Origin: Puteibacter caeruleilacunae
GTDB taxonomy: Bacteria > Bacteroidota > Bacteroidia > Bacteroidales > Prolixibacteraceae
DNA length: 64,000 bases
Reading direction: 5' to 3'
Assembly: GCA_005217565.1 (NCBI GenBank)
Contig: SJCO01000016.1
Coordinates: forward strand, 121,450-185,449
The notes beneath the pieces were generated by a model, which searched no databases, was not told where the DNA came from, and saw only the letters and a program-made list of their open reading frames with translations. Position 1 is the stretch's first letter; each line of letters starts with the position of its first letter. Below, one piece after another: positions 1-28,514 of the stretch. The translations under genes were made by a program, and so were the position numbers.

Positions 1-51
1 TGGCGCAAAGCCACCTATTTTAAAGTCTAAAGCATTTATGTTACTTTTATC

Positions 52-79
52 GGGCTGATAGTTTATATCCTATCAGCCC
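52..79. terminator. 10-bp hairpin ahead of the Lrp/AsnC gene
   Basis: GGGCTGATAG (52-61) pairs perfectly with CTATCAGCCC (70-79) around an 8-nt loop. There is no T tract on either side. It could end a gene lying left of the window, or sit in the leader of the Lrp/AsnC gene as an operator or RNA hairpin. TACTTTTA at 42-49 is one mismatch from the Bacteroidota -7 box, which would put the hairpin in the leader. The stem is certain; the role is not. Confidence 0.4.
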
Positions 80-102
80 ATATCATAAATACATCTCTCG
101 TC

Positions 103-570
103 ATGGAAAACATTGATCAGATAGACCGAAAAATATTAAACATACTTCAGGATAACGCAAAAATTACTCATCGTGAGATTGCCGAGAAGCTTCATCTTAC
201 CAGAACTCCCATTTTCGACAGGGTGAGAAAGCTTGAACGAAGAGGCATCATCAAGAAATATCTAACGCTGCTAAATCCCAAGAAAGTTGGTCGCGATTTA
301 ATGGTTTTATGCTTTGTTACCTTAAAGCAACATGGCGATGAGAATGTCATTCGCTTCAAAGAAGAGATCATCAGAAATCCTAAGGTAATGGAGTGTTACC
401 ATGTGGCCGGAAACTTCGATTTCTTCCTGAAGGTGATGGTTAAAGATGTTGATGAATATTACCTGTTTGTGGTGAATGAACTAGCCATTGTGCAAAATGT
501 TATTCAGGTGCAGAGCTCATTCGTTCTGAAAGAAATCAAATACCAACTAAACTTCGAACTGGAGGAATAA
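103..570 (+). CDS. Lrp/AsnC family transcriptional regulator
   Basis: The 155-residue protein has the two-domain plan of the Lrp/AsnC (feast/famine) family at its usual length. An N-terminal winged helix-turn-helix covers about residues 5-60 (IDRKILNILQDNAKIT, then REIAEKLHLTRTPIFDRVRKLE). A RAM-type effector domain covers about 65-145. These proteins are cytoplasmic DNA-binding dimers or octamers, often controlling amino-acid metabolism or transport. Its target cannot be read here: the next gene is 710 bp away and the upstream neighbour is outside the window. A strong hairpin just upstream could be its own operator. Family assignment is secure, ligand unknown. Confidence 0.93.
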   Translation: MENIDQIDRKILNILQDNAKITHREIAEKLHLTRTPIFDRVRKLERRGIIKKYLTLLNPKKVGRDLMVLCFVTLKQHGDENVIRFKEEIIRNPKVMECYHVAGNFDFFLKVMVKDVDEYYLFVVNELAIVQNVIQVQSSFVLKEIKYQLNFELEE

Positions 571-1280
571 GAGCAACGAATTCCTCATTATAAGACCAAT
601 AGATCGCTTTTAAGGGCATAGTAGTATCTCGTTATGATAGTGACTATAAAGTAGCCGATATGCTGCAAATAATCGCAAGCTCTAGTTTTTTGAGTAGTGA
701 ATGTAAGAGTAGTACGAAAATCGAACCTGCTTCAATTGGAAGATAGATTACTTGATGTTTATATCGCGAAATTTGAAATAAACCAGAGAACATAGGATTA
801 TGATAAGAAAATTACTTCTCTTCTCCTACTATTCCTTACTAATCCTTACCAAAGCCTACATACTACGGGCATTGAGTAGGCTTTGACAAGAATTAGACAA
901 GGCTCAGAGAAGACTCAGAGAAGGCTTTGAGTAGACCAAGACTGGTCTCTGATGATCTGATCCATGAATTCTCGTAACGATGTATAAATAATCAATATCA
1001 CATTTAGAAGCGTTTTTACTGAATCATAAGAACAAGCAATTGATAGCATTATAAGAATCACTATCTTTGTGCTGAACTAAAACGTTTGGATGTTTAAATT
1101 TAAGAAGGATCTGGTAAAGTAAATAACCTTTGATAGTCGATCTAAGGTTATCCCGTAATAAAACTCAGGCATATTCTTGTCGGAGTCATTTCTATATCTT
1201 TATTTTAATAACATTTTGAGACCAAACATGGTATAACTGTATGCCTATGTGGTGGTTTTAATTACCTAATTTTAAACATC
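571..1280. other. 710-bp intergenic region with repeats and hairpins
   Basis: I see no convincing coding frame. It holds a perfect 9-bp inverted repeat, AAAGCCTAC (851-859) with GTAGGCTTT (876-884). A degenerate tandem patch follows at about 875-935, built of units such as AGGCTCAGAGAAG, ACTCAGAGAAG and AGGCTTTGAGTAG. A good promoter lies at 1039-1069, and an 8-bp hairpin, ATAACCTT (1123-1130) with AAGGTTAT (1144-1151), lies downstream of it. The part after the promoter would be a long structured leader for the methyltransferase gene, or a separate small RNA. Confidence 0.5.
1039..1069 (+). promoter_or_regulatory. Bacteroidota-type promoter for the methyltransferase gene
   Basis: TATCTTTG at 1062-1069 matches the TAnnTTTG -7 consensus, and ATTG at 1039-1042 lies exactly 19 nt upstream as a -33 box with one mismatch to TTTG. 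Transcription would start near 1075, giving a leader of about 205 nt before the 1281 start codon. Confidence 0.55.
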
Positions 1281-2054
1281 ATGAGTAACGAAAATAAATC
1301 AATTCACGAATTCGACCTTGAACTTATCTGCGAGTATTACGCAAACGTAGAACGCCAAGGCCCTGGCAGTCCGGAGGTAACCATTAAGGCCTTAAGCTTT
1401 ATTGATAACCTGACCAGTGAGTCACGCATTGCAGATATTGGTTGTGGTACCGGTGGACAGACAATGGTACTTGCACAGCATGCTCCAGGGAAGGTAACAG
1501 GTGTTGACTTGTTTCCCCGGTTCATTGATCTATTCAATGCTAATGCGCACAAACATAACCTTCAGGACAGAGTTACAGGGGTAATTGAATCAATGGATAA
1601 CCTTTCTTTTCAGGATGAGGAACTAGACCTAATATGGTCGGAAGGTGCTATTTATAATATCGGCTTTGAACGAGGCCTTCAAGAATGGCGCAAATTCTTG
1701 AAGAAGGATGGTTATATCGCAGTTACCGAGGTTTCATGGTTTACTGATGAGCGACCTGCTGAGATCAACGAGTTCTGGGAGGATGCTTACCCGCTGATTG
1801 ATACTATTCCTAACAAGCTTGCTCAAATGCAAAAGGCAGGTTATGTTCCTGTTGCTTCGTTTATATTACCTGATGATTGCTGGACAGAACATTTCTATGC
1901 ACCACAAGTTGCAGCCCAGGAAGCTTTCTTAAAACAGCATGCAGGTAATAAGGCGGCTGAAGATTTCATCGCAAATCAGCGCCACGAAACAGCTCTTTAC
2001 AACAAATACAAAGCTTATTACGGCTACGTTTTCTATATCGGCAGGAAATTATAA
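1281..2054 (+). CDS. Class I SAM-dependent methyltransferase
   Basis: The 257-residue soluble protein has a Rossmann-type methyltransferase core. Motif I ([10 protein letters not shown], about residues 50-59) binds SAM, and the acidic motif II follows in VTGVDL (about 72-77). A motif-IV-like [15 protein letters not shown] follows at about residue 114. The acceptor substrate cannot be deduced. It stands alone, with its own promoter upstream and a hairpin terminator downstream, so it is probably monocistronic. Several small-molecule methyltransferase families share this fold, so only the general class is claimed. Confidence 0.88.
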
Positions 2055-2091
2055 AAGATAAATATCAGGTGCTTTTTATTGCTGACATTTT

Positions 2092-2118
2092 CAATCCGTG
2101 ACCAAGTGTCGCGGATTG
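2092..2118 (+). terminator. Hairpin terminator after the methyltransferase gene
   Basis: CAATCCG (2092-2098) pairs with CGGATTG (2112-2118), extended by a T-G pair, about 38 bp after the stop codon. The following ATTTATACT is only weakly T-rich, so it may act as an imperfect intrinsic terminator. Confidence 0.45.
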
Positions 2119-2133
2119 ATTTATACTAAAACA

Positions 2134-2282
2134 ACCTTGTAAAACTGAATCAAAAACACCAAATCACCCTTGTAAAACTGAATCAAAACTACAGATTTAC
2201 CTTGTAAAACTGAATTATAATTCCAAAACAACCTTGTAAAACTGAATCAAAAACTATAAATTTACCTTGTAAAACTGAATCA
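2134..2282 (+). repeat. Five-copy 18-bp direct repeat array (iteron-like) ending 3 nt before a start codon
   Basis: The unit CCTTGTAAAACTGAATCA occurs at 2135-2152, 2168-2185, 2200-2217 (one change, C to T), 2232-2249 and 2265-2282. Centre spacings are 33, 32, 32 and 33 bp, about three helical turns. A-rich spacers of 14-15 nt separate the units. The last copy ends 3 nt before the ATG of the AAA_14/DUF4143 ATPase, so the array occupies its whole promoter and leader. The unit contains CCTTGTA, which faintly resembles a -7 box. The even phasing suggests cooperative protein binding on one face of the DNA. Repeats and spacers are too short and too alike for CRISPR. Confidence 0.95.
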
Positions 2283-2285
2283 GAC

Positions 2286-3596
2286 ATGGAAAGATACGCT
2301 TTATCAGATTTAATGAAATGGCTTAAAAAGACTCGGCGAAAACCACTTTTATTAAGGGGAGCTCGTCAAGTTGGAAAAACCTGGCTTGTTGAAAAACTCG
2401 CGAATGAAGAATTTAAGCACTTCATTAAAATTGATTTTGAAGCAAATCCTCAATTTATTTCATTCTTTGAAAAAGACTTAGATGCCCAACGAATATGTAG
2501 CGAAATAGAATTAGTTTCTGGTATAAGTATAACACCAGGGAAAACACTCCTCTTTCTCGATGAAATACAAGCGTGTCCCAGAGCTATAATGTCTCTTCGC
2601 TACTTCTATGAAAAAATTCCAGAATTACATGTAATCGCAGCAGGCTCTCTTCTTGAGTTTGCATTAAGTGAGATTTCTTTTCCTGTCGGAAGAATTCAAA
2701 CAATGGAGGTTCATCCAATGAGCTTTTCAGAATTTCTTCTTGCTTTAGATTATCAACAAGCAGCATCTATCTGCAACAATCCTATTTCTGAAATTTCAGC
2801 ACCGGTTCATAATTTTCTTCTGGAACAGCTTCGAATTTATTGGTTAGTTGGGGGTATGCCTGAATCTGTATATGAATACGTGCAAACAAAATCAATTCAA
2901 CAAGCCACTGAAATACAAGATGAAATATGCAACACATATAGGCTAGATTTTGGCAAATACAAACCAAAAACTGATTTTACTTGTCTCAATACTGTTTTTT
3001 CGGCTGTTGCTGCTAAAGTTGGCCAACAAATCAAATATACAGGTCTTGCCAAAGATTATTCAATATCAACAATAAAGAAGGCATATGAAAATCTCATTTT
3101 AGCACGTATTACAAGTAAAATAAAGTCTGTTTCTTCTCCCGGTATTCCTTTAGAAGTACTTGCTTCAAAGAAAAAGTTTAAGAGTATATTTCTGGATATT
3201 GGTCTAATGAATAGGGTAATGGAATTAGATTACTCTGAGGTTCTACGTTATGACAATCTATTAGCTATATACCGAGGACAACTGGCCGAGCAATTTATCG
3301 GTCAAGAGCTTATTTTTGCTTTAAACAAACCGCTATATTATTGGTCGAGAGATGCAAAAAGCAGTAATGCAGAGATTGACTTTTTATTATATAAACAGGG
3401 AACATTTACTCCAATTGAAGTAAAAGATGGTCCATCAGGTAAATTGAGAAGTCTTCATTTATACAGAAATGAATTCCAACCGGATTATTCTATTGTTTTT
3501 CACTCAGGTATGATGGCAGAAATTCCTGAAGAAAAAATTTTATTTCTTCCATTGTATTTCGCCTCCTCTTTCGTCCAATATGGCATAAATATTTAA
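2286..3596 (+). CDS. AAA_14 / DUF4143 family ATP-binding protein
   Basis: This 436-residue protein is typical in length for the family. An AAA domain comes first, with Walker A GARQVGKT (residues 25-32) and Walker B LLFLDEIQ (88-95). A winged-helix-like middle region and a C-terminal DUF4143 domain follow. Near the C-terminus, EIDFLL (from about residue 363) followed by PIEVK (about 376-380) matches the core of PD-(D/E)XK nuclease-fold proteins. The family is widespread and often multi-copy in anaerobic bacteria, with no firmly established function. The start is fixed by ATG at 2286 right behind the repeat array. It may bind or be regulated by those repeats; that is inference. Confidence 0.9.
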   Translation: MERYALSDLMKWLKKTRRKPLLLRGARQVGKTWLVEKLANEEFKHFIKIDFEANPQFISFFEKDLDAQRICSEIELVSGISITPGKTLLFLDEIQACPRAIMSLRYFYEKIPELHVIAAGSLLEFALSEISFPVGRIQTMEVHPMSFSEFLLALDYQQAASICNNPISEISAPVHNFLLEQLRIYWLVGGMPESVYEYVQTKSIQQATEIQDEICNTYRLDFGKYKPKTDFTCLNTVFSAVAAKVGQQIKYTGLAKDYSISTIKKAYENLILARITSKIKSVSSPGIPLEVLASKKKFKSIFLDIGLMNRVMELDYSEVLRYDNLLAIYRGQLAEQFIGQELIFALNKPLYYWSRDAKSSNAEIDFLLYKQGTFTPIEVKDGPSGKLRSLHLYRNEFQPDYSIVFHSGMMAEIPEEKILFLPLYFASSFVQYGINI

Positions 3597-3654
3597 AAGA
3601 AGTAATTATCAATTCTATTTTTTTGATTCTGAATGATCAAACATTTACCTTCTT

Positions 3655-4332
3655 TTACAACCTCATCCCTACAGAAAACGTCCAGTACTTAGGATCAAAA
3701 CTTACAGTCCAATGTATTCTATCACTATCCCAATCGGTATTATCATACTCAATACCTCCTAAATCAAGACCTACGCTCCATCGCTCTGTGATGAAATAAG
3801 TAATTCCAGGAGCAAGTTTTGATTTAAAGTAGTCAAAATCATCAAACTCCATCTCATATGGATCAATCCGCATAGAAGAAGAAAACATCGAATCCGCGCT
3901 CTGAATAACCCCTGTAGCATCAGTTTTCTTCTTGCCGTATCCTACTTGAAGTGTTCCATTGATATACAATCGATCAATTATATTGTGGAAATAACCAAAA
4001 TACAGTTTTGGCATAAGCACTTTTGATTTTAAATCCATTTGCTCTCTCATGTAAAACTTTTCGCTCGCCAAGAAACTCGACTTCTCCTGTTTCAATTTAT
4101 TGTATTCCAATCCTATTCCTATCAAAAAACCATTGGATAAGAAATACTTTATTGCTCCTCCCACTTCCAGATTTTGCTCTATCAATCCTGAACTATTAAA
4201 TGCTACACCACTCGTTGATCTGGTTTTAGTATAACGTCCATCAGCATTGATCAGGAAATCACCTTTTTTAATCTGAGCCGAAAGATTCAACGTGCAAATA
4301 AACATTAGGGCAAGTAAGAAGTATTTTTTCAT
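3655..4332 (-). CDS. Outer-membrane beta-barrel protein (PorT/OmpA-barrel-like)
   Basis: A 225-residue exported protein. The ATG at 4332 is preferred over the upstream GTG at 4380 because it opens a clean signal peptide (MKKYFLLALMFICTLNLSAQ). The mature part is a series of alternating amphipathic strands with glycine and aromatic residues and ends in WTFSVGMRL, typical of small 8-10-stranded outer-membrane barrels. It is clearly paralogous to the protein at 43255-43965: both share an IKKGD/IKEGD start, a YFGYF/YIGYY motif, an ERWSVGLDLGG/DRWSLGLGLGG motif and the same C-terminal ending. A terminator separates it from the SusCD genes, so it is probably transcribed alone. Function unknown. Confidence 0.82.
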   Translation of the reverse strand: MKKYFLLALMFICTLNLSAQIKKGDFLINADGRYTKTRSTSGVAFNSSGLIEQNLEVGGAIKYFLSNGFLIGIGLEYNKLKQEKSSFLASEKFYMREQMDLKSKVLMPKLYFGYFHNIIDRLYINGTLQVGYGKKKTDATGVIQSADSMFSSSMRIDPYEMEFDDFDYFKSKLAPGITYFITERWSVGLDLGGIEYDNTDWDSDRIHWTVSFDPKYWTFSVGMRL

Positions 4333-4417
4333 TACATAAATTTTAGTTGTTCTTAATGACCTCCAGCAACATACACTCACATGAACATAACTTACTTATG
4401 TAAAAAATATTACACAA

Positions 4418-4453
4418 CACCGGCCTTAACTTATAAAAAAATTAAGGCCGGTG
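4418..4453 (-). terminator. Terminator of the SusC/SusD operon
   Basis: A perfect 12-bp stem, CACCGGCCTTAA (4418-4429) with TTAAGGCCGGTG (4442-4453), encloses a 12-nt loop. It lies 25 bp past the stop codon of the lipoprotein gene. On the minus strand it is followed by a T-rich stretch (TGTTGTGTAATATTTTTT), as expected of an intrinsic terminator. Confidence 0.8.
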
Positions 4454-4477
4454 CTTATTAATCATTCACTTACCTAC

Positions 4478-5533
4478 TTACTCACTAACAGTAATGTTAT
4501 ACGTTTTAGTTACACTTTTCTTCTTTCCATCCTGATCCACATTGGTAAAGACAAATGTGGCGGTATAATTTCCAGGTTCTGAGTAACTATATTCAAAGCT
4601 TGATTTCTGATCCACAAAAGAACTTACAGGAATTCCTCTATCTCCAGGAATCGGGAAATCAATCTGAGTTAAATCCAATGGAAACATCAATGCATAACTA
4701 TCCATCGATGTAGAGCTATACCATCCTTGACCTCCAGTAATACACCACCCGGTATTCCATGGCTTCCAATAACGCGTTTCATTCGACATGGTTACATTCT
4801 CCATTCCATCACCACTGGTTCTAAAGTCTTTTCCTCCGTCAAAAACGTCAGATATTACCTGTACCTTATAATCCTTGACAAAGTAGTTCCCCATAGTTGT
4901 TCCCCCATCGTAGTTTCTGAAAGCAAAAGTTACCTTTTGGGCGTCCGATGAACTATATGATTTCAAATCAACAGTTGTTGTAATCCAATCGCCTCCCTGG
5001 CCATGCTGGCATTTACCAAATTCTACATCTGGAACTTGCTCCCACGTAGCTTCCTGGAATAACTCCTTTCCTGTTTTATATTCGTTTTTAAGCCTGAAGG
5101 CATTAACCAGATTCTCGACTTGTGCATCTACCTGCTCATCTGTTAATCCCAAAGAATCAACACTTAATGAATCACTCATCGACTTGGTATATTCGCTTAC
5201 TTCAAAATTGATACTTTTAACCGAATCAATTCCAACATAGTTCTTAGAATACCATAGCGACATAAATTGATCGCGTCCATCCCATTCTCCTTTCGATGTA
5301 AACACAAGCTGTAGACTACCCTTTGCATAAATAGAGTCTTTTCTATTATAGTCATGTCCAGGCTCACCCGAATAAAAAGACACTAAATCAGATTGTTGAT
5401 CAAAAGTAAATTCTATTGTCTCATTTGCTTTTGAACTTATTTTAATTGTAGAATTATCAATTTTAGGCACCTCTAAATCATCGGAACATGAGATTACCAC
5501 CACTAACATTAAAAAGATATATAAATATTTCAT
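4478..5533 (-). CDS. SusCD-associated surface lipoprotein with PKD-like C-terminus
   Basis: A 351-residue lipoprotein. ATG at 5533 is chosen over the ATG at 5560 because it starts directly with the lipoprotein signal peptide (MKYLYIFLMLVVVISC, then SDD). The middle part (GKCQHGQGGDWITTT, then VTFAFRNYDGG) resembles DUF5017-type or jelly-roll carbohydrate-binding domains. The last 60 or so residues (SFEYSYSEPGNYTATFVFTN) read as a PKD/Ig-like domain. As the third gene after susC and susD it is most likely a SusE/F-like surface glycan-binding protein. The gene starts 14 nt beyond the SusD stop, which indicates one transcript. The ligand cannot be read. Confidence 0.8.
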   Translation of the reverse strand: MKYLYIFLMLVVVISCSDDLEVPKIDNSTIKISSKANETIEFTFDQQSDLVSFYSGEPGHDYNRKDSIYAKGSLQLVFTSKGEWDGRDQFMSLWYSKNYVGIDSVKSINFEVSEYTKSMSDSLSVDSLGLTDEQVDAQVENLVNAFRLKNEYKTGKELFQEATWEQVPDVEFGKCQHGQGGDWITTTVDLKSYSSSDAQKVTFAFRNYDGGTTMGNYFVKDYKVQVISDVFDGGKDFRTSGDGMENVTMSNETRYWKPWNTGWCITGGQGWYSSTSMDSYALMFPLDLTQIDFPIPGDRGIPVSSFVDQKSSFEYSYSEPGNYTATFVFTNVDQDGKKKSVTKTYNITVSE

Positions 5534-5546
5534 GTGCTTTAAATTT

Positions 5547-7061
5547 TTAGTAACCGGCATTTTGTGGTCTTAGATTCTGATTTTTATCTATTTCAGTCTG
5601 AGGAATAGGATATAGCAGAAACTTCTCACTAATCAATTCTGATGCTTTACACCATGGTAAGCCATCATCTCCCTGTGCAATATTCTGCACCGTTGACACA
5701 AGTGTTCCCCAACGCTTCAAATCGTACCAACGTATACCTTCATAACACAACTCCCACGAACGCTCTTGCACTATCGCATCTTTAAAACTATCATACGATA
5801 AATCAGTTGTCAAAAACGGTAAGATGGTATTATCTTCTTTTTTGTCATCTGGTCGGGCCCGATAACGAACTTTATTTATTGCATCGCATGCATCCTGATT
5901 AGGTCCATTATTAATTTCATTCAATGCCTCGGCATACAACAATAACACATCAGAATAACGCATAACAACCCAATTTAAAGGATTAGCATATGGGTGATAA
6001 TCTGGTGCACTCCTACGCTTATACTTTACAATCATAGCATTGTTATAATCAAGTTCATTCTGATTTCTACGCTTCTCTACATTCCACTTAAAACGAGTAT
6101 CATTGACATCGTAGCTTTTCAAGAAACGAGGAACAGGTTTATGATCAGACCAAGCTCCTCCTTCCTGTTCTACATTACGATCAACACGTCCGATTCCCCA
6201 GGCTGCGACATTACTTCCCTCTCCTCCAACAGAATATGCAATCTGCACCAATATTTCGTGATACTCAGAATCATATCTATCATCTGTAATATCTCCAAAA
6301 AGTTTGGCATAAGAAGGATTCAATTGATGTACCTCTTCTGAAAACATCTCTTCACACGTCGATTTTACATCATTCCAGTGCTCCTTCTTGTTATTAGGAT
6401 AACCAGCCAAAGTAGCATATACCATTGTGAGCATACCCTGTGCACTTCCTTTGCTAAACCTTGGATGCTGAGTAACCTTATCGGCCGGTGGCAATAAACT
6501 TTTCGCGGTAGTTAGGTCTGTTAACACTTGCTCATATATCTCACTCACAGAGGCCTTCCCTGGATACAAATCAGAATTACCATTTGTTCCCTTTAACAAA
6601 AGAGGAACCTCTCCATACAAACGTACAAGATTAAAATAGATCAATCCACGGATAAACAATGCTTCGCCAATCATAACATTAGCCGAACCTGTACCAAAAT
6701 TGGCAGCTTCCATCTTGTCAAGAAACATATTAGCAGCATTAATTCCCTTATAAGCTTCTTTCCAATAGTTTTCAATATCACCTGTTTCTGCGGTAAAGTT
6801 TAGGTTCATGATCTTAGTCCAGCCCTGAGCCCAACCATCAACAACAAACTCATCAGTCGGGCCATAACCTATTTTATCAACCGATGGATACATCTGTTTC
6901 TGCAAACAACCATACACACCAGTAAGTGCCATGGATGCACCATCCTCATTTTTATAGATATTGGCCTCAGAATAAAATGTCGATGGTTCTTCTGTCAAAT
7001 CTTCACACGATACACATGCAAAAAGTAACATTGTTGCGAATATGATACTTAAGTACTTCAT
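5547..7061 (-). CDS. SusD/RagB family nutrient-binding lipoprotein
   Basis: A 504-residue surface lipoprotein with an N-terminal lipoprotein signal (ATMLLFACVSC, then EDL). It has the SusD features: a helical TPR-rich N-terminal half (YFNLVRLYGEVPLLL) and the C-terminal RagB/SusD region (VMRYSDVLLLYAEALNEI, QERSWELCYEGIRWYDLKRWGTL, then YPIPQTEIDKNQNLRQN-like ending). SusD proteins form the lid on the SusC transporter and bind the substrate, commonly an oligosaccharide but sometimes a peptide. The gene follows susC with a 2-bp gap. Family certain, substrate unknown. Confidence 0.96.
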   Translation of the reverse strand: MKYLSIIFATMLLFACVSCEDLTEEPSTFYSEANIYKNEDGASMALTGVYGCLQKQMYPSVDKIGYGPTDEFVVDGWAQGWTKIMNLNFTAETGDIENYWKEAYKGINAANMFLDKMEAANFGTGSANVMIGEALFIRGLIYFNLVRLYGEVPLLLKGTNGNSDLYPGKASVSEIYEQVLTDLTTAKSLLPPADKVTQHPRFSKGSAQGMLTMVYATLAGYPNNKKEHWNDVKSTCEEMFSEEVHQLNPSYAKLFGDITDDRYDSEYHEILVQIAYSVGGEGSNVAAWGIGRVDRNVEQEGGAWSDHKPVPRFLKSYDVNDTRFKWNVEKRRNQNELDYNNAMIVKYKRRSAPDYHPYANPLNWVVMRYSDVLLLYAEALNEINNGPNQDACDAINKVRYRARPDDKKEDNTILPFLTTDLSYDSFKDAIVQERSWELCYEGIRWYDLKRWGTLVSTVQNIAQGDDGLPWCKASELISEKFLLYPIPQTEIDKNQNLRPQNAGY

Positions 7062-7063
7062 TT

Positions 7064-10000
7064 CTAAAATTTTGCTTTAACACTAAATATTGCTATTCTC
7101 GCCGTAGGATAGGTTCCATTATCAATTCCTTTGGTCATTGTCCCTCCACTTGTTGATGCCTCTGGATCAGCTCCTGAATAATCTGTAAGTGTCCACAAAT
7201 TCACTCCTGACAAGGAGAACTCCAAATGTTTCATGTGCATCTTCTTCGAAATCTTTTTGGGAATTGTATATGCCAGAGAAACAGTTTTTAACTTTAAATA
7301 ACTAGCGTCTTCAATATATCTCGATGAGACAACCCTTGAGGGCCCTTGATATTGTAGTCCGGCTGCCGGCATAGTTGTATCCTGATTGTCCAATCGCCAA
7401 TACTGCTTCGTACTATGCAACTTATTACCACCACCGCCTAACTCCTCTAATTGTAGACGAGTCATGTTAAATACATTTCCTCCATACTGATAGGTAAAAT
7501 GAATATTCAGCTTTAATCCTTTGTATGAAAAACTATTAGATACACCTCCAAAGAAATCAGGATTAGACTCTCCAATGACAATCTTATCTTTATCATCAAC
7601 GATTCCATCGCCGTTCATATCCTTGAACTTTACACTTCCCGGGTAGATTGTTCCAGCGTAGACAGGTACATTTCCCTTAATAGAGTACGATTCCTTTAGT
7701 GGATCATAGTTAAAATCTTCTAAGCCATAAACACCATCCCAAACGTAACCGTACATCTGGCCAATTGGATCTCCTACTCTGATGATAAACTCATTCTTTG
7801 TATAATCCCATGGTGAATCGATGATCTTATAGGTAGACTCGTCATTTAACTTCTTTACCTCATTTTTATTGAAGGAAATATTAAAGCTAGTATGCCAACT
7901 AAAGTCTTTCTTTTTAATATTCTGAGAATTTAACGAAAACTCAAATCCTTCGTTCTCCAACTCCCCAATATTGTCAAGAAAACCATCATAACCACTTGTA
8001 TAAGGCATACTTACCTTATAAAGCAAATCACTGGTCTTTTTGTGGTAGTAATCTAATTCTAGATTTAACTTTCCTTTCATTAAACCAACCTCTAATCCAA
8101 TATCTGTTTGTGCGGTCTTTTCCCATTTCAATGCTGGATTCTCAAGCGATGATGATCGTACTCCAGTAGTCTGCTTGGCATTATCGAATGTGTAATTCTC
8201 ATAACTGTATTTTCCCAGCGATCCGTAAGGTGGAATTCCCTGACTACCATTGATCCCATAACTTGCACGTAATTTAAGATTAGAGAAGACCTTCAGATCC
8301 TTAATGGCTTTCACTTCATTCAATCTATATCCAAGTGCGATCGATGGGAAGTGCCCCCACTTATTCCCCGCTCCAAATTTTGAAGAACCATCAGCTCTAA
8401 AGGTTGTGGTCACTAGTAATCGTTCTTTGAATGTATACGACAAACGACCAATAAACGAGTGTAAAGTCCACTCACTTTTGTCAACACGTGGATTACCAAT
8501 ATCCTCTCCACTAGGCAATCCCCAAACACCTAATACATCATTAACGAAACTTGCTGAACGTACCGAAAAACCAGAACTTTCACTTCCTTGCTGAGTAAAA
8601 CCAAACATCGCACTCAATCGGTGATTTTCACCTAACTTAGGGTCCAGAAATACCAGATTATCGTTCATATACCCCTCATACTTACTGGTTCTAAGATCAG
8701 CTGTTCCGTTGTAAAAACTACCATTAACCGTTTTTACACTCTGAAAGTTTTCATTCCTACTTTGTCCACTCGACATGGCTCCCCTGAAAATAAACTTCAC
8801 CCATTTCAATGCTTTATATTCCAATTCACCATTTAATCGATAGCTATACTGATAACGATCATTTTGTACATTTTGCAAGTGAACAATTGGATTAATTCTT
8901 GTCTTTATGGGCTTTCCTTCATCATCGAGACCAAACTCTGACTCTTTAATATCTACATATGGATCATGTGGTGCATATTTAAGCGCGTTCAAATAAACAC
9001 CATACGTTCCACTTACACCATCTCCATAATAATGTTGCTTCGAAAAATCAAAGCTACTGCGAACAGCAATTTTATCAGAGAACTTATGTTGTCCGTTCAT
9101 CTTTAGATTCAACCGATCGTATCCAGTGTATTTCACTACACCTTTCTCATCGTTATAGCCACCAGAGATATAATACTGTGTTTTACCAGAATTTCCACTA
9201 GCCGAAACCCTGACATTATTCTTTTGTCCGAGCTCCAGGATCTCATCCTGCCAATTAACTCCCTCAACATCCTTATACTTTTCTGCCCAGTTTTTGTAAT
9301 ACTTACTCCAGGGATTGATGGCATCCATCATCTGGTAATATTCCGATCCATTAAGCATATCAAACGTACGATACACCTCACTTATACCTAATGAATAATC
9401 AACGTTTATTTCATTTCGCACATCCTTACCAAACTTATTGGTAGTGATAATGATTACACCATTTGCGCCTTGCGAACCATATATCGCAGTAGACGAAGCG
9501 TCCTTAAGAATTTCTACAGATTTAATCTCTGAAGGGTCGATGGTTGATGGATCAACTCCAATAATATCATCAACAACATAAAGTGGACTACTACTACCAT
9601 TGATTGAGTTCATTCCTCGAATTCTAACGTTCATACCTCCTCCAGGACGTCCGTCGTTCGATGAAATTTGTACTCCTGCAACACGACCAGCTAAGGCTTC
9701 TGAAACATTAGACAGGGCCTTCGATTCAATCTGTTCGGCCTTAACCGATCCAATAGAACCTGCCAAGTCTCGTTTCTTCATACCTCCGTAACCAACGGCA
9801 ACTACTTCCTCAATTCCGATAGCATCTTCCGATAATGTAACATCAATAACCGACTGAGATCCAACTATCACCTCTTTTGTCTCCATGCCAATAAACGAGA
9901 ACTGCAGAACTGTTTTTGCATTTACGCCATTAATGCGATATCCTCCATCAAATTTAGTTACCGTACCATTGGATGTCCCCTTAATCAATACAGTAGCACC

Positions 10001-10447
10001 TGGTAAGGGCTCCCCATGCTCATCGGTTACTACTCCGGTTACCGACTTTTGTTGCATACCTGCAGTCACCCCATTCATCACTTTATCTTTGTTGCGATGA
10101 ACGATAATATAGTGATCAACTATTTTATAGTTTAATGATGTACCATCAAGTACTTCATCTAAAATATCGGTTACTTTAGCATTTTTAAAATTCACCGATA
10201 CTTTATCAAGATCATTAAGTTCTTCCTTCTGAAAGAAGAAATAAAAATCACTCTGTTCTTCTATCTCCCGAAAAAGCTCAACAATACTATTGTTCTTCAT
10301 CGAAAGATCCAACTTCGCATTCTGAGAATAGGAAGAGGCACTAACAGAGAGGAATCCAATCAATAAAATGGTAATAGTTAGCTTCATTTTTAACAAAAGT
10401 TGTCGCCACGAATGGTATATACCAATCGTATTAGTAAATTTTTTCAT
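7064..10447 (-). CDS. SusC/RagA family TonB-dependent transporter with STN signalling domain
   Basis: A 1127-residue outer-membrane transporter. After a signal peptide (about residues 21-41) come an STN domain (about 44-118), a carboxypeptidase-regulatory-like domain (about 135-220, VTGVVTDEHGEPLPGATV) and a plug (about 225-340, EEVVAVGYGGMKKRDL). A 22-stranded barrel with the SusC ending follows (SGADPEASTSGG near the C-terminus). STN-bearing SusC proteins relay substrate occupancy through FecR to an ECF sigma factor. Both partners lie immediately upstream at 10614-12287. It forms the outer-membrane pore for the SusD protein. No degradative enzyme lies in the same operon. Confidence 0.97.
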   Translation of the reverse strand: MKKFTNTIGIYHSWRQLLLKMKLTITILLIGFLSVSASSYSQNAKLDLSMKNNSIVELFREIEEQSDFYFFFQKEELNDLDKVSVNFKNAKVTDILDEVLDGTSLNYKIVDHYIIVHRNKDKVMNGVTAGMQQKSVTGVVTDEHGEPLPGATVLIKGTSNGTVTKFDGGYRINGVNAKTVLQFSFIGMETKEVIVGSQSVIDVTLSEDAIGIEEVVAVGYGGMKKRDLAGSIGSVKAEQIESKALSNVSEALAGRVAGVQISSNDGRPGGGMNVRIRGMNSINGSSSPLYVVDDIIGVDPSTIDPSEIKSVEILKDASSTAIYGSQGANGVIIITTNKFGKDVRNEINVDYSLGISEVYRTFDMLNGSEYYQMMDAINPWSKYYKNWAEKYKDVEGVNWQDEILELGQKNNVRVSASGNSGKTQYYISGGYNDEKGVVKYTGYDRLNLKMNGQHKFSDKIAVRSSFDFSKQHYYGDGVSGTYGVYLNALKYAPHDPYVDIKESEFGLDDEGKPIKTRINPIVHLQNVQNDRYQYSYRLNGELEYKALKWVKFIFRGAMSSGQSRNENFQSVKTVNGSFYNGTADLRTSKYEGYMNDNLVFLDPKLGENHRLSAMFGFTQQGSESSGFSVRSASFVNDVLGVWGLPSGEDIGNPRVDKSEWTLHSFIGRLSYTFKERLLVTTTFRADGSSKFGAGNKWGHFPSIALGYRLNEVKAIKDLKVFSNLKLRASYGINGSQGIPPYGSLGKYSYENYTFDNAKQTTGVRSSSLENPALKWEKTAQTDIGLEVGLMKGKLNLELDYYHKKTSDLLYKVSMPYTSGYDGFLDNIGELENEGFEFSLNSQNIKKKDFSWHTSFNISFNKNEVKKLNDESTYKIIDSPWDYTKNEFIIRVGDPIGQMYGYVWDGVYGLEDFNYDPLKESYSIKGNVPVYAGTIYPGSVKFKDMNGDGIVDDKDKIVIGESNPDFFGGVSNSFSYKGLKLNIHFTYQYGGNVFNMTRLQLEELGGGGNKLHSTKQYWRLDNQDTTMPAAGLQYQGPSRVVSSRYIEDASYLKLKTVSLAYTIPKKISKKMHMKHLEFSLSGVNLWTLTDYSGADPEASTSGGTMTKGIDNGTYPTARIAIFSVKAKF

Positions 10448-10459
10448 ACATTTGAATGG

Positions 10460-10528
10460 TTTAAATTACTTGTGAGTTTTTTAAATCTTTAACGGTAGAG
10501 ATGCGTCACCATTTCTGCCGTTTTTTTG
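10460..10528 (+). ncRNA. Candidate cis-antisense sRNA opposite the susC leader
   Basis: On the plus strand, within the 166-bp gap between fecR and susC, TACATTTG (10447-10454) matches the -7 consensus. About 40 bp downstream lies a very strong intrinsic terminator (10491-10527). No plus-strand gene is present, so the pair would produce an RNA of about 65-70 nt antisense to the susC 5' leader. Antisense sRNAs at this position are an established repression device of Bacteroides glycan-uptake loci (the DonS type). The -33 region is weak, so the promoter is the least certain part. Confidence 0.45.
10491..10527 (+). terminator. Strong plus-strand intrinsic terminator in the fecR-susC gap
   Basis: AACGGTAGAGATG (10491-10503) pairs along 13 positions, with T-G and G-T wobbles, with CATTTCTGCCGTT (10510-10522) around a CGTCAC loop. 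A run of seven T (10521-10527) follows. The T run and the wobbles favour the plus strand, the direction opposite to susC. On the minus strand the same positions give C-A and A-C mismatches. Confidence 0.75.
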
Positions 10529-10613
10529 TTTTAAATGTTACTCCACGATTAGTGATCTAATCAAAAAACATGGAAAATTTCGTTAGGTGATCTTTTCAAA
10601 TTTTACATAGGCA

Positions 10614-11648
10614 CTATTTTATTGAGATAATTACTTTATCCTGTGCTCCCAACACTCGGGTATATTTTATTTTCAATGGTAACAATACCTCAAAGGCTGC
10701 AATAATCTGATCGAAAGGTTTATTTTTTAGGACTGTTCCCGTAAATTTCATCTCTCCAATAGCCGAATCTGCAAATTGGATATCCACATTATACCAACGC
10801 TCAAGCTTAACCGCTACTTGTGAAAGTTTCTCTTCATCAAAAACAATCTTTCCTTCACGCCATGAGATATAGTTCCTCGTTTTAATAGTGCGAATATTTG
10901 CCTCGTTTGACGTTTCATTTATAGTTATTTGCTCTGAAGGTTTCAAAGTTGCCAATGTTTCTCCTTCCTGGTTATTTACCTTCACTTGACCTTCCAGTAG
11001 TGTTATCTCACTTATATTATCATCGTGATAAGCTACCACATTGAACTGTGTACCCAAAACCTCAACTTCTTTTCCCTTAAACTTTACTTTAAAAGGTTTA
11101 TCCATAGAGGTTACATCGAAGAAAGCCTCTCCTTCCATTGATACCTGTCGTTCTTTCTCTCCAAAGCTGTTATTATAGCGTAATGTAGTTCCTGAATTCA
11201 ACCAAACCTTTGTCCCATCAATTAAAGTCATCTCCGACATTTGTCCTAATGGTACTTTAACCTCGGCATAACCACCCAGTCCATCACTCTTATTCCACCA
11301 ATTAGTAAGTACACCTCCCAAAACAAAAGCCAACACAATAACAGCAGCTAATTGTACAATATTACTAATCATCTTAATCGTTTTGCCTCTCAACCCATTC
11401 GATACATTACCCCATGATCTTTGTCGCGACACCCCGGTAAGCTTCTTTACTTCTGAAAAATCGTCCTTCATATTTTTCAGCGTTCTAAAATTCTTACGAT
11501 GCTGATCATCTTCAAGTAGTTCGGTGAATTCGCTCAACTCCTCTTCCGATATCTCCTCATGCAACCTCGCTGCGGCCAAATCCCAAAATTTATCACTCTC
11601 TTTTTCTGTCATTTTGCTTTTTTCATGAACAGTTTCAACAACTGGCAT
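10614..11648 (-). CDS. FecR family anti-sigma factor
   Basis: A 344-residue inner-membrane protein. A cytoplasmic N-terminal FecR/DUF4880-like helical region comes first (about 20-65, KFWDLAAARLHEEISEEEL). One transmembrane helix (about 94-116), a periplasmic FecR domain (about 128-220, WLNSGTTLRYNNSF) and a C-terminal DUF4974-type domain follow (about 268-340, LSQVAVKLERWYNVDIQF). It would hold the ECF sigma factor at 11739 inactive until the SusC STN domain signals substrate. Translation could start at residue 1 or at the methionine at residue 13. It lies between the sigma and susC genes, as usual. Confidence 0.94.
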   Translation of the reverse strand: MPVVETVHEKSKMTEKESDKFWDLAAARLHEEISEEELSEFTELLEDDQHRKNFRTLKNMKDDFSEVKKLTGVSRQRSWGNVSNGLRGKTIKMISNIVQLAAVIVLAFVLGGVLTNWWNKSDGLGGYAEVKVPLGQMSEMTLIDGTKVWLNSGTTLRYNNSFGEKERQVSMEGEAFFDVTSMDKPFKVKFKGKEVEVLGTQFNVVAYHDDNISEITLLEGQVKVNNQEGETLATLKPSEQITINETSNEANIRTIKTRNYISWREGKIVFDEEKLSQVAVKLERWYNVDIQFADSAIGEMKFTGTVLKNKPFDQIIAAFEVLLPLKIKYTRVLGAQDKVIISIK

Positions 11649-11738
11649 TATACTATACCCTGATCTGATTTAATAACTGAGAGAAACGACTCTCTACATG
11701 AATGACGGAAAAGTGATTCAAGGAGGGTGACAGGAAAG

Positions 11739-12287
11739 TTATTTTTTTTGCAAAAAATAGAATAAATAAAAATCACGAGGCTCAAGAGTCTCCTTTAAAA
11801 ACCTGTAAGCACGGCCTATTTGTGACTTTACAGTATTCTTGGAAATATTTAATTTATCAGCGATTTCCTGGTACGACAATGATTCAAATGCAGCTAATTC
11901 CAGAATTTTTCTCCTTTGCTCCGGTAGCTTTGCTATAGCCTTATATAGCTTCACATAGCGCAATTGTGCATCAAATTCTGTTTCCTCTGCAACCTCAGGA
12001 AACTCTTCAACAATATCGACTAACTCTTGTCTTTTCCGATGATGATCGATAATTAGATTCCGAAGTATGCGAAACAAATATGATTTTAAAGAGATCTTAA
12101 TTTCCAATTTGGACCTATTCTCCCAGAGTTTAATAAAGCAGTCGGAAACAATATTTTCAACCAGCTGATCATCACGAAACGACTGCTTCGCAAATAAACA
12201 CATCTGATGAAAATATCTTATATGAAGCTCATTTAGAGCCTTCATATCCCCATTCTGGATATTCTCCCAAAGTTTTAAATCTTGCAC
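11739..12287 (-). CDS. ECF-type RNA polymerase sigma-70 factor
   Basis: I place the start at GTG 12287, giving 182 residues, the usual length for Bacteroidota ECF factors (Q-D-L-K-L-W-E-N-I-Q onward). The frame is open further upstream to an ATG at 12437. However, a TACTTTTG promoter box at 12313-12320 lies inside that extension, and its sequence (FYFLAVYYFCNSKPKPQ) looks untranslated. Region 2 is seen in MCLFAKQSFRDDQLVENIVSD and region 4 in LAAFESLSYQEIADKLNISKN with the HTH. It should drive susC/susD transcription under FecR control. Confidence 0.9.
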   Translation of the reverse strand: MQDLKLWENIQNGDMKALNELHIRYFHQMCLFAKQSFRDDQLVENIVSDCFIKLWENRSKLEIKISLKSYLFRILRNLIIDHHRKRQELVDIVEEFPEVAEETEFDAQLRYVKLYKAIAKLPEQRRKILELAAFESLSYQEIADKLNISKNTVKSQIGRAYRFLKETLEPRDFYLFYFLQKK

Positions 12288-22374: not shown

Positions 22375-22589
22375 AGAATCTGGATTATTTTCAATCTGAT
22401 TAAGTTTATTATCTCCAATTATATAAGATAGAACTTACATTGAATTTCAATCATTCTCATAGGTATAACGTAGAATGCTGGTATTCATGTTCGTTTCATG
22501 ATAATAAAAATAACAACTTTGAGCTTATCTATTCTAATAAGTGATTGATTTGTCCCATAATTGGCATAAATCACTCCATCATCAGTAAA

Positions 22590-23345
22590 CTAATCTTGCT
22601 TTAAACGTTCAATAATATCCAAGGTCGTTTTATTCATGTCAGTCCACATGACTGTTTCTACAAATTGACCTAAGGTTGGGTGATATTCTGGCAAGTGTGC
22701 TTCTAGCTCTTCCAGTGCCTCATTAAATTCTTCCAGAAGTTCCAACTCCTCTTCGCTAAACAACTCAGTAAAATCTTCCGATTCGGGCATGTATGAATCT
22801 TTCCAGTGTCGGAACAGTGCTGCCAATACTTGAGTATCGTATTCATCATTCTGACAGCTAAGAAGCACCTCCTTGGAAGTCCACAGGTGCAGTACACTAA
22901 AGATATTTTGTCTGTTCAACTCATGGAATTCATCATCAGTAACACTATAATCTTCCTCTTCTTCCTCAGCCTCTTCTTCTTTCTTGGCAATGGTATTTTT
23001 TAGCGGTCTCTGTTTGATTCGAACCTGGTAATAGTAGAATGGAGCGTATATAAAATTGAGAAAAATCAATGCATAAATAGCCTTCGAATACTTGTCGTGC
23101 TTATGCCAGAAACGTATACAAAAGATCCAGTGAATTAAAATACAAATTGATAGAGGTAAAAAGTAAAGTTTAATATCCGAGTCTTTCGTAAAGCTCATAA
23201 AATCTTTGTGATCTATAATATCAGTAAAAATCAAGACTGCCCCCAGTAATAATGATGTAACTAAGCACAATACATTAGCCCAGAAACAAATACGAATAAA
23301 AATATTGTCTTTGGTGTCTATTGAGAAGTTATTGTTTGCCTCCAT
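22590..23345 (-). CDS. Uncharacterised membrane protein with acidic cytoplasmic tail
   Basis: A 251-residue protein that I do not recognise. Three hydrophobic helices are visible at about 18-42, 58-80 and 86-110. A basic stretch (RIKQRPLKNTIAKK) is followed by a run of glutamates (about 123-132). The C-terminal half (about 135-251) is soluble, acidic and probably helical, with FSEEELELLEEFNEALEELEAHLP. The basic flank suggests this tail is cytoplasmic. It stands alone between an AraC gene and a divergent TonB-dependent receptor. The 215-bp gap downstream (22375-22589) shows only a weak 7-bp hairpin (AGTGATT 22540-22546, AATCACT 22569-22575). Confidence 0.78.
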   Translation of the reverse strand: MEANNNFSIDTKDNIFIRICFWANVLCLVTSLLLGAVLIFTDIIDHKDFMSFTKDSDIKLYFLPLSICILIHWIFCIRFWHKHDKYSKAIYALIFLNFIYAPFYYYQVRIKQRPLKNTIAKKEEEAEEEEEDYSVTDDEFHELNRQNIFSVLHLWTSKEVLLSCQNDEYDTQVLAALFRHWKDSYMPESEDFTELFSEEELELLEEFNEALEELEAHLPEYHPTLGQFVETVMWTDMNKTTLDIIERLKQD

Positions 23346-23447
23346 AAAAGTTGTCGTTTATTAAGATTATGTTTCAGTCGATGAATTTAGGGAAAAAAAA
23401 GTTACATCGCCAGAAACATTCGCTCTCTCTGCAAGAAAAATCACTAC

Positions 23448-23487
23448 AACAGTTAAGTGTTTCTAACTTTTTGGCATCTTAACTGTT
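23448..23487. promoter_or_regulatory. Inverted repeat in the divergent promoter region
   Basis: AACAGTTAAG (23448-23457) and CTTAACTGTT (23478-23487) are perfect inverted repeats with a 20-nt spacer, in the 300-bp gap between the leftward membrane-protein gene and the rightward receptor gene. Centres are about 30 bp apart, which fits a regulator bound at two half-sites. CATCTTTG at 23583-23590 is a one-mismatch -7 box for the receptor gene. Nothing else is clear in 23346-23645. Confidence 0.5.
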
Positions 23488-23645
23488 TCAATAGTATCTC
23501 AATTAACAGAAGCTGTTTTATCCATTCCCCCGCAAATTTATGTCGTTTGCCAGTATTAGTTTAGTACGAGAGAAATTCTCTTCATCTTTGCAATGAAATC
23601 GAAAAGAGACCAATCTTGTATTAATAAACCGTATAACCACTATTA

Positions 23646-26081
23646 TTGATGAAACAGATCGTGATCATTTTACTTGCTGTTCTTACAGCATGGATGCCTT
23701 TAAATACACTAGGGAACAGTCCTGAAAATCCAGTGGAGGATGAAAAAGGAAAAGTTGTAGGAGAAGTTCAGGACAAGAACTCAAAGAAGCCTATTGAGTA
23801 TGCTACAATTACCATTCATAATACCGATGGAGACCAGTTAATAACCGGAACAATTAGCGATGCTCAAGGTCAGTTTACCCTAAAGGACATAAAAAACGGC
23901 TCCTATTATATCAGCATAAAATTCATTGGATATAAAGAACAAATTCTTCGGGATATCACCGTAAAGGGACGAAATTCATCAATCAACATTGGCAATATTC
24001 TGCTAGAGGAAGACAGTCAGGCTATTGACGAGATTGTTGTTTCAACCAATCGCCAAAAAATCAGCTATCAGATAGATAAAAAGGTAATTAATGTGGCTGA
24101 GCAAATTACCTCTGCATCAATGTCTGCCGTTGAAGTATTGGAAAATATGCCATCAATACGCGTGGACATTGAAGGAAATGTTTCGCTCCGTGGAAGTACC
24201 GGATTTACCGTTTTAATCGATGGAAAACCAACAGTCCTTGACCCCAGCGATGTTTTAAAGCAAACACCTGCGTCGACCATCCAAAATATAGAAATCATCA
24301 CCAATCCATCGGTTAAATATGAACCTGATGGAACCGGTGGAATAGTCAATATTGTAACGAAAAAGAATAGAACACCAGGCATACAGGGACTGGTTAATTT
24401 CAATACTGGGTCTTTCGGTCGCTATGGTGCTGATTTCCTGCTCAACTACCGTAAGAATAACATGAATTTCTTTATCGGCAGTGAACACAGAAGGTCTCCC
24501 TATGAGGGAAATTCGTATAACGAACGCAGAACGACTATTGATGGAACAACTACCTATAACATCTCTGAAGGAGAAAGTAATCGTCAGCGCAATGGGAATG
24601 ACCTGCGACTAGGTATTGAGTGGGATATGTCGGATAATGATAACTTTTCTCTTGAGGCTCGGGGTGGTAGATATGAATCACTCTATGACTCCAGACTTAA
24701 CTATTTCACCCAACAAAATGACGAAATTCCATTTCGGGAGATAAGTGAAAATGAATCAGGAAGAAGTGCCAACTATATATCAACCAATGCGAATTACATC
24801 CACAAGTTCGATGAGGAAAAACATGAATTGGTAGCGCAATTAAACTTCAGCTATCGAGATGGGGATGAGCATGCCGAGAACTTCCGACTAGATGCCAATG
24901 AAGATGTAACTGGTGCGACCAGAACTACTGAGGTTGGCCCTGGGAAACGCTGGACTATGCGCCTGGACTATACAAAGCCTTTTGATAATGACAATGCGCT
25001 TGAAACAGGATTTCAGCTACGAAAGAGTACTAGTATTGATGAAACCACCTTCAACATCTACGACATTACAAATAAGGAGTTTGTGCTTCAACCTGATTTC
25101 AGTAACAAGATTGATTATGACCATAACATTTATGCCGTGTATGGTATATATCGAGGAATGTTCAACAATTTTGGTTATCAGGTAGGACTACGAAGTGAAT
25201 ATACATACAGAGAGGTTACTCCAACAACATCTGATGAGGTATTTACCATTGATCGTTGGGATTACTTCCCCACCCTTCACATTTCATTTCAGTTTCCGAA
25301 GGATCACCAGCTAATGACAAGCTACTCAAGGAGAATTGACCGACCAAGAGGATGGTATCTGGAGCCTTTTATCACCTGGAGTGACATGTATAACGTACGA
25401 CGAGGGAATCCGGAATTAGATGCAGAATATATTGATGCACTGGAGTTAAGCTACGTTAAGAATTGGGAAGAATCGCAGTTTTCACTTGAAACCTATTACA
25501 GAATTAAGCACAACAAAATTGAACGTATCCGCTCGGTATATGATGAAGGGATTGTTTTATCAACGTATGAGAATATTGGGAAGGACTACTCTCTGGGTAT
25601 GGAGTTAATGTATTCTACCCCATTATTTAAGTGGTGGGAAGTTTCTTTTACGGGTAACATGTTTGATTACCGCATTGATGGAGAGCGCAACAATGTTTCA
25701 TACGATATGAGTTCATTCACATGGAGTAGTCGGATGGCAAATACATTTCAGGTACATCAAAACTGGCGTTTACAGCTCGACGGATTTTATAACAGTCCGA
25801 CCATTAGCACTCAAAGCGAGAGTCGTGAGAACTATGGCGTAAACCTCGCTGTAAGGGCCGATTTTTTGGATAGAAAACTATCGACCACACTTCAGGCGCG
25901 TGATTTATTCTCAACAATGAAATATGAAAGTACCATTGAAGATGATAACTTATTCAGTCTTCGCAAATATTCAAACAATGCGCCTTTACTTTCTTTAACT
26001 TTAAGTTACCGTATTAATAATTTTAAACCAAAGCGGCAACAACGAAATGGAGACAATCAGAACGGTGGTGAAGAGTTTTAA
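23646..26081 (+). CDS. TonB-dependent receptor, outer-membrane beta-barrel family
   Basis: An 811-residue outer-membrane protein with a signal peptide (about 1-23). An N-terminal carboxypeptidase-regulatory-like domain (about 36-118; GEVQDKNSKKPIEYATITIHN) and a TonB plug (about 125-230; VEVLENMPSIRVDIEGNVSLRG) follow. The large barrel is of the OMP_b-brl_3 type (YSRRIDRPRGWYLEPFITW). It lacks SusC features and has no SusD partner. The following genes encode a LytS-type kinase and a LytTR regulator, 33 bp apart and overlapping, which suggests a co-transcribed sensing and transport unit. The ligand is unknown. Confidence 0.92.
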   Translation: MMKQIVIILLAVLTAWMPLNTLGNSPENPVEDEKGKVVGEVQDKNSKKPIEYATITIHNTDGDQLITGTISDAQGQFTLKDIKNGSYYISIKFIGYKEQILRDITVKGRNSSINIGNILLEEDSQAIDEIVVSTNRQKISYQIDKKVINVAEQITSASMSAVEVLENMPSIRVDIEGNVSLRGSTGFTVLIDGKPTVLDPSDVLKQTPASTIQNIEIITNPSVKYEPDGTGGIVNIVTKKNRTPGIQGLVNFNTGSFGRYGADFLLNYRKNNMNFFIGSEHRRSPYEGNSYNERRTTIDGTTTYNISEGESNRQRNGNDLRLGIEWDMSDNDNFSLEARGGRYESLYDSRLNYFTQQNDEIPFREISENESGRSANYISTNANYIHKFDEEKHELVAQLNFSYRDGDEHAENFRLDANEDVTGATRTTEVGPGKRWTMRLDYTKPFDNDNALETGFQLRKSTSIDETTFNIYDITNKEFVLQPDFSNKIDYDHNIYAVYGIYRGMFNNFGYQVGLRSEYTYREVTPTTSDEVFTIDRWDYFPTLHISFQFPKDHQLMTSYSRRIDRPRGWYLEPFITWSDMYNVRRGNPELDAEYIDALELSYVKNWEESQFSLETYYRIKHNKIERIRSVYDEGIVLSTYENIGKDYSLGMELMYSTPLFKWWEVSFTGNMFDYRIDGERNNVSYDMSSFTWSSRMANTFQVHQNWRLQLDGFYNSPTISTQSESRENYGVNLAVRADFLDRKLSTTLQARDLFSTMKYESTIEDDNLFSLRKYSNNAPLLSLTLSYRINNFKPKRQQRNGDNQNGGEEF

Positions 26082-27840: not shown

Positions 27841-27875
27841 AGGGACCAACATGCATTGACACATGATTGATCCCT
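27841..27875. terminator. Hairpin between convergent genes
   Basis: AGGGACCAACATG (27841-27853) can pair, with one mismatch and one bulge, with CATGATTGATCCCT (27862-27875) right after the LytTR stop codon. A T-rich stretch (CACTATAATATTTT) follows. It would serve as terminator for the LytTR gene and possibly for the converging DUF1847 gene. Confidence 0.55.
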
Positions 27876-27909
27876 TCACTATAATATTTTCCAAGATTGG
27901 ATTTATGAA

Positions 27910-28392: not shown

Positions 28393-28412
28393 TCGATTTG
28401 TATTTTGAGCGG

Positions 28413-28443: not shown

Positions 28444-28514
28444 ACAAGCCTGCGCTTTTGTGAGATAATTCTCATTTACTTCACAATTTCTAAAGATTTT
28501 AAACGAAATTATCG

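Follow-up and report, generated by a model that had tools for sequence, protein, structure and literature searches.

A phased array of direct repeats upstream of AAA_14/DUF4143 (PDC-S01) ATPase genes: a candidate private operator of a predicted ATPase-nuclease

The genome of Puteibacter caeruleilacunae (7.97 Mb in 220 contigs) contains, within the stretch of 64,000 nucleotides (nt) that is referred to here as the window (G000:C19:121450-185449, contig SJCO01000016.1), a gene for an AAA_14/DUF4143 ATPase that is preceded by an array of direct repeats. The 18-bp unit CCTTGTAAAACTGAATCA is present five times before the gene, four times in identical form and once with a single change, as found by direct reading of the letters and by a mechanical repeat search (Table 1). 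Successive copies are 33, 32, 32 and 33 bp apart and only 3 nt separate the fifth from the ATG at 2286, an arrangement that had been described in a first-pass annotation of the sequence and that held when the positions were rechecked. With up to 2 mismatches allowed, the 18-mer is found genome-wide at the five array sites and at 1 further site, which has 2 mismatches; the reversed pattern, used as a control, has 2 matches in the whole 7.97-Mb genome. The unit is thus not scattered through the genome, as it would have been in the case that the annotation had held to make a functional link with the gene unlikely.

The encoded protein matches Pfam AAA_14 over residues 18-151 (95.5 bits, cut-off 27) and DUF4143 over residues 221-380 (92.6 bits, cut-off 28.1), as well as the PADLOC profiles of the family PDC-S01 (best 3e-142, residues 1-432). 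The PDC-S01 models also match 57/57 homologues of alignment A1, each by at least four of the seven models. Among these 57 homologues G25, R27, G30 and K31 of the Walker A region are invariant, as are D92, E93 and Q95. Likewise E363, E378 and K380 of the PD-(D/E)XK site are invariant and E335 and D365 are present in at least 90%, which bears out the earlier suggestion that the C-terminus keeps residues of this kind. On predicted folds, the C-terminal domain has the nuclease core of the PD-(D/E)XK superfamily, with McrC and Can2 among its nearest nuclease folds, and the protein has the ATPase, helical and winged-helix parts of the STAND-type group that includes archaeal SSO1545/PABY2304. The winged-helix-like region is a candidate DNA reader. 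A sequence search of solved structures gave a P-loop match to midasin (1e-10, about 48 residues), 2fna (0.011) and a Cas4 (0.018), and neither NCBIfam nor PHROGs returned a match that was clear or above cut-off (PRK08939 0.0075; phrog_168 7e-4).

Table 1. Features of the repeat array and of the ATPase gene, in window positions
Feature	Position	Strand	Basis or remark
Repeat copy 1, exact CCTTGTAAAACTGAATCA	2135..2152	+	Direct reading and mechanical repeat search
Repeat copy 2, exact CCTTGTAAAACTGAATCA	2168..2185	+	Direct reading and mechanical repeat search
Repeat copy 3, single mismatch at base 17 (..GAATTA)	2200..2217	+	Direct reading and mechanical repeat search
Repeat copy 4, exact CCTTGTAAAACTGAATCA	2232..2249	+	Direct reading and mechanical repeat search
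Candidate -7 box TAAATTTA	2257..2264	+	5/6 match to TAnnTTTG; in the spacer directly before copy 5
Repeat copy 5, exact CCTTGTAAAACTGAATCA	2265..2282	+	Direct reading and mechanical repeat search
AAA_14-DUF4143 ATPase gene, 436 amino acids, PADLOC family PDC-S01	2286..3596	+	Pfam and PADLOC profiles
Predicted STAND/AAA+ ATPase core, residues about 1-160	2286..2765	+	Residue conservation, predicted fold
Predicted winged-helix-like region, residues about 226-302	2961..3191	+	Predicted helix/strand order; covariation suggestive only
Predicted PD-(D/E)XK nuclease-fold domain, residues about 326-422	3261..3551	+	Conserved E335, E363, D365, E378, K380

Is such an array a property of this gene, or of its family? 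The window protein was searched against 61 genomes (its own and 60 relatives), of which 38 gave a match at E <=0.001. Added to these were 40 further stretches of the 61 genomes, 30 contigs of a viral collection, the best 80 loci from named genomes of many phyla, picked by protein only, and a draw of 392 genomes of the phylum, in which 42 (own included) matched at E <=1e-60 and contributed 28 new genes. The three harvests comprised 65, 104 and 28 genes, genes without an N-terminal match or a start codon being left out, and removal of those with less than 200 nt of upstream sequence, or with one identical to a sequence already retained, gave a first set of 167 genes and later a set of 193. The controls were 452 open reading frames (ORFs) from the same loci and the window, from which 181 family relatives were removed to leave 271, and then 76 more whose upstream sequence overlapped a family gene or its 300-nt leader, to leave 195.

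At a threshold repeat score of 12 at a given lag, a repeat at lag 32-34 is present upstream of 95 of the 193 AAA_14/DUF4143 genes and of 2 of the 195 control ORFs (14/271 before the final control filter). Nine further family genes, and none of the controls, reach the threshold only at lag 64-67, which is two periods. At any of the other 79 lags tested, 7/193 family genes and 9/195 controls do so. Of the two control positives, one (L188) is a family repeat that occurs there a second time, and the other (L052) is a locus with fragments of family genes. The lag 32-34 repeat is seen in every source, with 39/64 genes from the own genome and its relatives, 12/23 from the viral collection, 32/80 from the genome contigs and 12/26 from the phylum draw, and the best lag within 20-60 falls at 32-34 for 121 of the 167 genes of the first set against 10/195 controls. 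A phased upstream array is a mark of the AAA_14/DUF4143 (PDC-S01) family in many bacterial phyla. The search upstream of DUF4143 genes in related genomes that the annotation had proposed has found many arrays of the same period with other sequences, and the tie between array and gene, which would have been doubtful had the homologues lacked arrays, is borne out by the 104/193 that have one at threshold.

Some observations lie at the edges of this survey. A distant DUF4143 paralogue in the own genome (L004/L062, C100, about 22,400-23,900) has three palindromic AAAGTTTAAAGTATACTTTAAACTTT-type units before its start at lag 40 instead of 33, so that other subfamilies may use other rulers, and a further paralogue (L005) has a repeat at lag 32 with a score of 11. 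One two-copy array is common to two divergent DUF4143 genes and is placed between them (L030/L082, G059:C54). Elsewhere in the window, at about 59,395-59,644, upstream of a minus-strand ORF that starts near 59,394, there is a control match with a repeat at lag 21 and a score of 14.

In the 82 arrays of the first set there are most often three copies (46 arrays), then two (17), four (15), five (2) or six (2), and the 172 spacings are 33 bp in 129 cases, 32 in 33, 34 in 7, 31 in 2 and 35 in 1. Over 92 loci, 86% of positions in the core and 44% in the spacer are in agreement among the copies of an array; part of this contrast is built in, agreement having been the basis on which the core window was selected. 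The units face the same way, with CCTTG present in 27/92 consensus units and its reverse complement in 0/92, and they are mostly non-palindromic, perfect arms of at least 6 being found in 9/92 (1.9 expected on shuffling). The last copy is a median of 28.5 nt from the start codon in these 92 loci.

Array and gene are also conserved together. In 12 orthologues from one genus two copies 33 bp apart are the conserved portion of the upstream DNA, where smoothed conservation reaches about 0.94-0.99 within the copies and falls to as low as 0.71 in the DNA between them; the leader has about 0.6-0.8 and the DNA upstream about 0.3-0.7. Among nine orthologues, four (L195, L196, L198 and L203) have 0.8-1.2 kb of upstream DNA in common and share about 0.1 kb with a fifth (L197), and the remaining four (L193, L199, L206 and L209) have no upstream DNA in common with the others; since the upstream DNA differs in this way, array and gene stand together at different sites. 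The upstream of a further member of this genus (L194) is the same as that of L119, from a genome labelled Chlorobiota.

Arrays precede the family gene on chromosomal contigs and plasmids alike. From 59 plasmid and 10 phage records, 13 loci were chosen by organism, mostly one per genus, before their upstreams were viewed, and 8 of these have an array by score at lag 32 or 33: Acinetobacter towneri, Collinsella aerofaciens, Criblamydia sequanensis, Segatella copri HDE06, an unannotated faecal phage clone, Fusobacterium animalis, Agathobacter rectalis and Prevotella sp. E2-28. On the Bacteroides thetaiotaomicron plasmid NZ_CP143942.1 (L245) the promoter has two copies at a distance of exactly 66 bp, which flank TATATTTG and fall below the score threshold. 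The other loci of the 13, from S. copri DSM 18205, Vibrio coralliilyticus, Ruminococcus albus 7 and Vescimonas fastidiosa, are without an array, the last having a repeat at lag 42. Genes of the L245 type, with about 34% identity to the window protein, recur on Bacteroides, Parabacteroides and Phocaeicola plasmids, many of which are about 98-104 kb.

The repeats overlap predicted promoters. The -7 box of Bacteroidota promoters is TAnnTTTG, and in a scan of the 39 array loci from the order of the window genome a perfect TAnnTTTG is present 20-70 nt before the start at 26, against 8/65 controls. At these 26 loci 65 of the 82 copies precede the box and 17 follow it. The register between repeat and box is locked (Rayleigh R 0.47, p about 0.003), the average position of the box being in the spacer. 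The sites thus overlap the predicted promoter of their own gene, as those of an autoregulatory operator do. The candidate box of the window would place four copies upstream and copy 5 at the transcript start or leader, and the TTG of copy 4 would then fall at the position expected of a Bacteroidota -33 element. Sites that extend across the promoter and the start point would suit a repressor better than an activator.

Whereas the period of the array is common to the family, the sequence of its unit differs from gene to gene. The three closest family genes of the own genome have three different repeats (CCTTGTAAAACTGAATCA in the window, TATCTTGATAAAAGTGT and CCCTCATTnnATnACAA), and in two relatives, L113 (68% protein identity) and L114 (66%), the units are related but altered, such as CCTTGGTTTTCTAAAT and CCTTGGATAACTAAAT. 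The covariation of repeat and protein that the annotation had proposed as a check was found: over 82 array loci repeat similarity correlates with protein identity at r=0.47, a value reached by 0/2000 permutations (maximum 0.15), with 0.18 for the reverse-complement control and r=0.50 when 92 loci are used. Searches with three repeats found no copy with fewer than 2 mismatches outside the family arrays, and a regulon of further sites was rejected on these three pattern searches. As the sequences differ by gene and track the protein, it is likely that every member of the family recognises a DNA address that is private to it. Which part of the protein would do so is suggested, though no more than suggested, to be the C-terminal half: the partial r with repeat similarity is 0.24 for the nuclease-fold domain given the ATPase and 0.08 for the ATPase given the nuclease domain, and the same split for the winged-helix region gives 0.23 and 0.15. 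Covariation by windows of 25 residues has no clear peak (partial r -0.11 to 0.12). Two neighbouring family genes in the own genome (L001 and L003, C91, about 26,600-29,600) each have their own different array and are a natural test of orthogonality.

Taken together, these observations make it probable that the array is the cognate operator of the gene, read by its own ATPase-nuclease for autorepression. That the encoded protein binds the repeats we infer from the correlation of repeat with protein and from the privacy of the sites, and of the roles which the annotation had offered for the array, that of a recognition site of the ATPase is the best supported. The protein would assemble along its own array through the predicted winged-helix and nuclease-fold C-terminus. 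With copies spaced close to three helical turns apart, successive protomers would sit on about the same face of the DNA, so that ATP-dependent, STAND-like oligomers could form. The array-bound protein would then repress its own promoter, and a nuclease that could do harm would be kept silent until some trigger, an infection perhaps, altered its nucleotide state or removed it from the array.

Several points weigh against this reading. The upstreams of 89/193 family genes (46%) are below the array threshold, though weak arrays are visible by eye, as in L113. The phase lock between repeat and box is moderate, the largest of 2000 random draws reaching R 0.55, and the box of the window itself, a 5/6 match, is weak alone, though the family register supports it. 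Whether the spacing is 32 or 33 bp does not track protein neighbours (65/87 nearest pairs agree, null mean 61.6, p=0.24). The repeat-protein correlation is partly the shared descent of the gene and its upstream DNA; the domain split is weak, as faster-evolving domains may resolve distance better and shared descent could mimic it. The array might also serve activation in place of repression. Finally, in a comparison of 52 same-genome with 614 cross-genome pairs from 37 loci of known genome, made in five bins of protein identity without a significance test, same-genome repeats are slightly more alike in four bins (scores of 5.9 and 5.0, 5.8 and 5.3, 5.5 and 5.4, 6.5 and 6.0) and less alike in the top bin (7.4 and 8.6).

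The likeness in four bins is what would be expected if a host transcription factor or nucleoid protein bound the repeats and the ATPase gene were simply one of those it regulates, and the position of the repeats at promoters is likewise that of host operators. Against a host factor, paralogues of one genome have different repeats, and the three pattern searches gave no copy with fewer than 2 mismatches outside the family arrays. The different repeats of these paralogues also argue against the earlier proposal that the array is a landing site for other family members. Repeat types are common to relatives in distant hosts, CCTTG units being found in Bacteroidota and in assembled genomes labelled Acidobacteriota (L145), Aminicenantes (L149/L153/L160) and Treponema (L171). 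The repeat tends to go with the protein more closely than with the host, and we regard a host factor as improbable. Closer to the operator is the proposal that the array is a cognate site used mainly as a target or switch of the nuclease or ATPase, for self-marking, sequestration or as an activation platform. The conserved PD-(D/E)XK residues, the likeness to the McrC and Can2 folds and the listing of the family as a defence candidate all agree with it; promoter overlap and register exceed what a pure target would need, and we think it rather unlikely that this is the main role.

Control at the level of RNA, through translation or as an RNA binding site in the leader, was suggested by the window locus, where the last copy ends so close to the ATG. 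Across the family, only 17/92 loci have their last copy 6 nt or less from the start, and since most copies at the 26 loci with a perfect box are upstream of this predicted -7 box they would be outside the mRNA. Window positions 1-12000 also have no match in Rfam. An RNA element was rejected on these grounds and is very improbable, and the translation control proposed by the annotation falls with it. The orthologues that have array and gene together at different sites, and in which conservation sets in close to the first copy, might point to a recombination or insertion end and to a gene that moves as a cassette, as might locus L188, where a partial array recurs downstream. This second array has two copies (3,710-3,767) of the locus's own repeat, about 390 bp downstream of the family gene (2001-3323) and before another ORF, and is a solo array or a remnant. 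L188 is a single case; no matching repeat was seen by eye in the 150 nt after the gene in nine orthologues, where no systematic search was made, and recombination needs neither a promoter register nor a private sequence for each gene. There is accordingly little to recommend the cassette. Phased direct repeats are also characteristic of replication or partition iterons, the role with which the annotation had compared them. Upstream of the array lie a methyltransferase and an Lrp/AsnC-type regulator and the gene behind it is an ATPase, so that no Rep or Par gene, and no replication initiator, is among the three proteins scanned against Pfam; arrays before chromosomal as well as plasmid copies of the family gene likewise do not fit an iteron origin, which was rejected and has next to no probability.

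How does the array compare with known systems? Plasmid iterons are likewise phased and same-facing, and differ from an array that lies over a promoter, is private to each ATPase gene and has no replication protein seen beside it. The STAND regulators MalT and mycobacterial IniR bind direct repeats, but act on other genes, where the sites described here are private to their own gene, and they carry LuxR-type DNA-binding and MalT-like sensor domains in place of the nuclease-fold C-terminus of the window protein. The nucleases McrC, Can2/Card1 and DdmD have another ATPase or sensor architecture and about 8-17% identity in alignments. The protein family itself is known: PDC-S01 (AAA_14/DUF4143, COG1373), a candidate, ranks fourth in frequency among prokaryotic defences, with about 39,000 genes counted and with validation pending for most PDCs (PMC12988326), and arrays at its promoters are unmentioned in the main text of that paper, from which the word 'promoter' is absent. 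Phage protection by the window protein, which matches the PADLOC models of this family, is a candidate role only. In the literature searched, which covered no preprints and few subscription papers, there was no description of the array and no account of a PDC-S01 mechanism, and DUF4143 was named by one paper only. The annotation had put the locus forward as an undescribed system; it is the array that appears to be new, the protein family being already listed as a defence candidate.

A bolder proposal, which we advance only tentatively and think rather unlikely, is that PDC-S01 is a one-gene immune switch with its own DNA address, for which the array is both operator and safety lock. On its private array the ATPase-nuclease would be silent and would limit its own synthesis. 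The array might be stripped or titrated by an invader, through damage to the DNA or when the carrier is lost, after which the STAND ATPase would reassemble, expression would rise and the nuclease would be unleashed. Each copy of the gene would evolve a new address, which may allow many copies per cell without cross-talk.

Through the arrays, a DNA ligand can be predicted from the genome for members of an abundant and unexplained family, so that many natural pairs of protein and site are open to tests of binding, regulation, orthogonality and nuclease control. With dozens of diverged private sites, the family would also supply DNA-binding ATPases that are orthogonal to one another. In structural terms, the 33-bp ruler hints at the way in which a STAND-like ATPase may build up along DNA.
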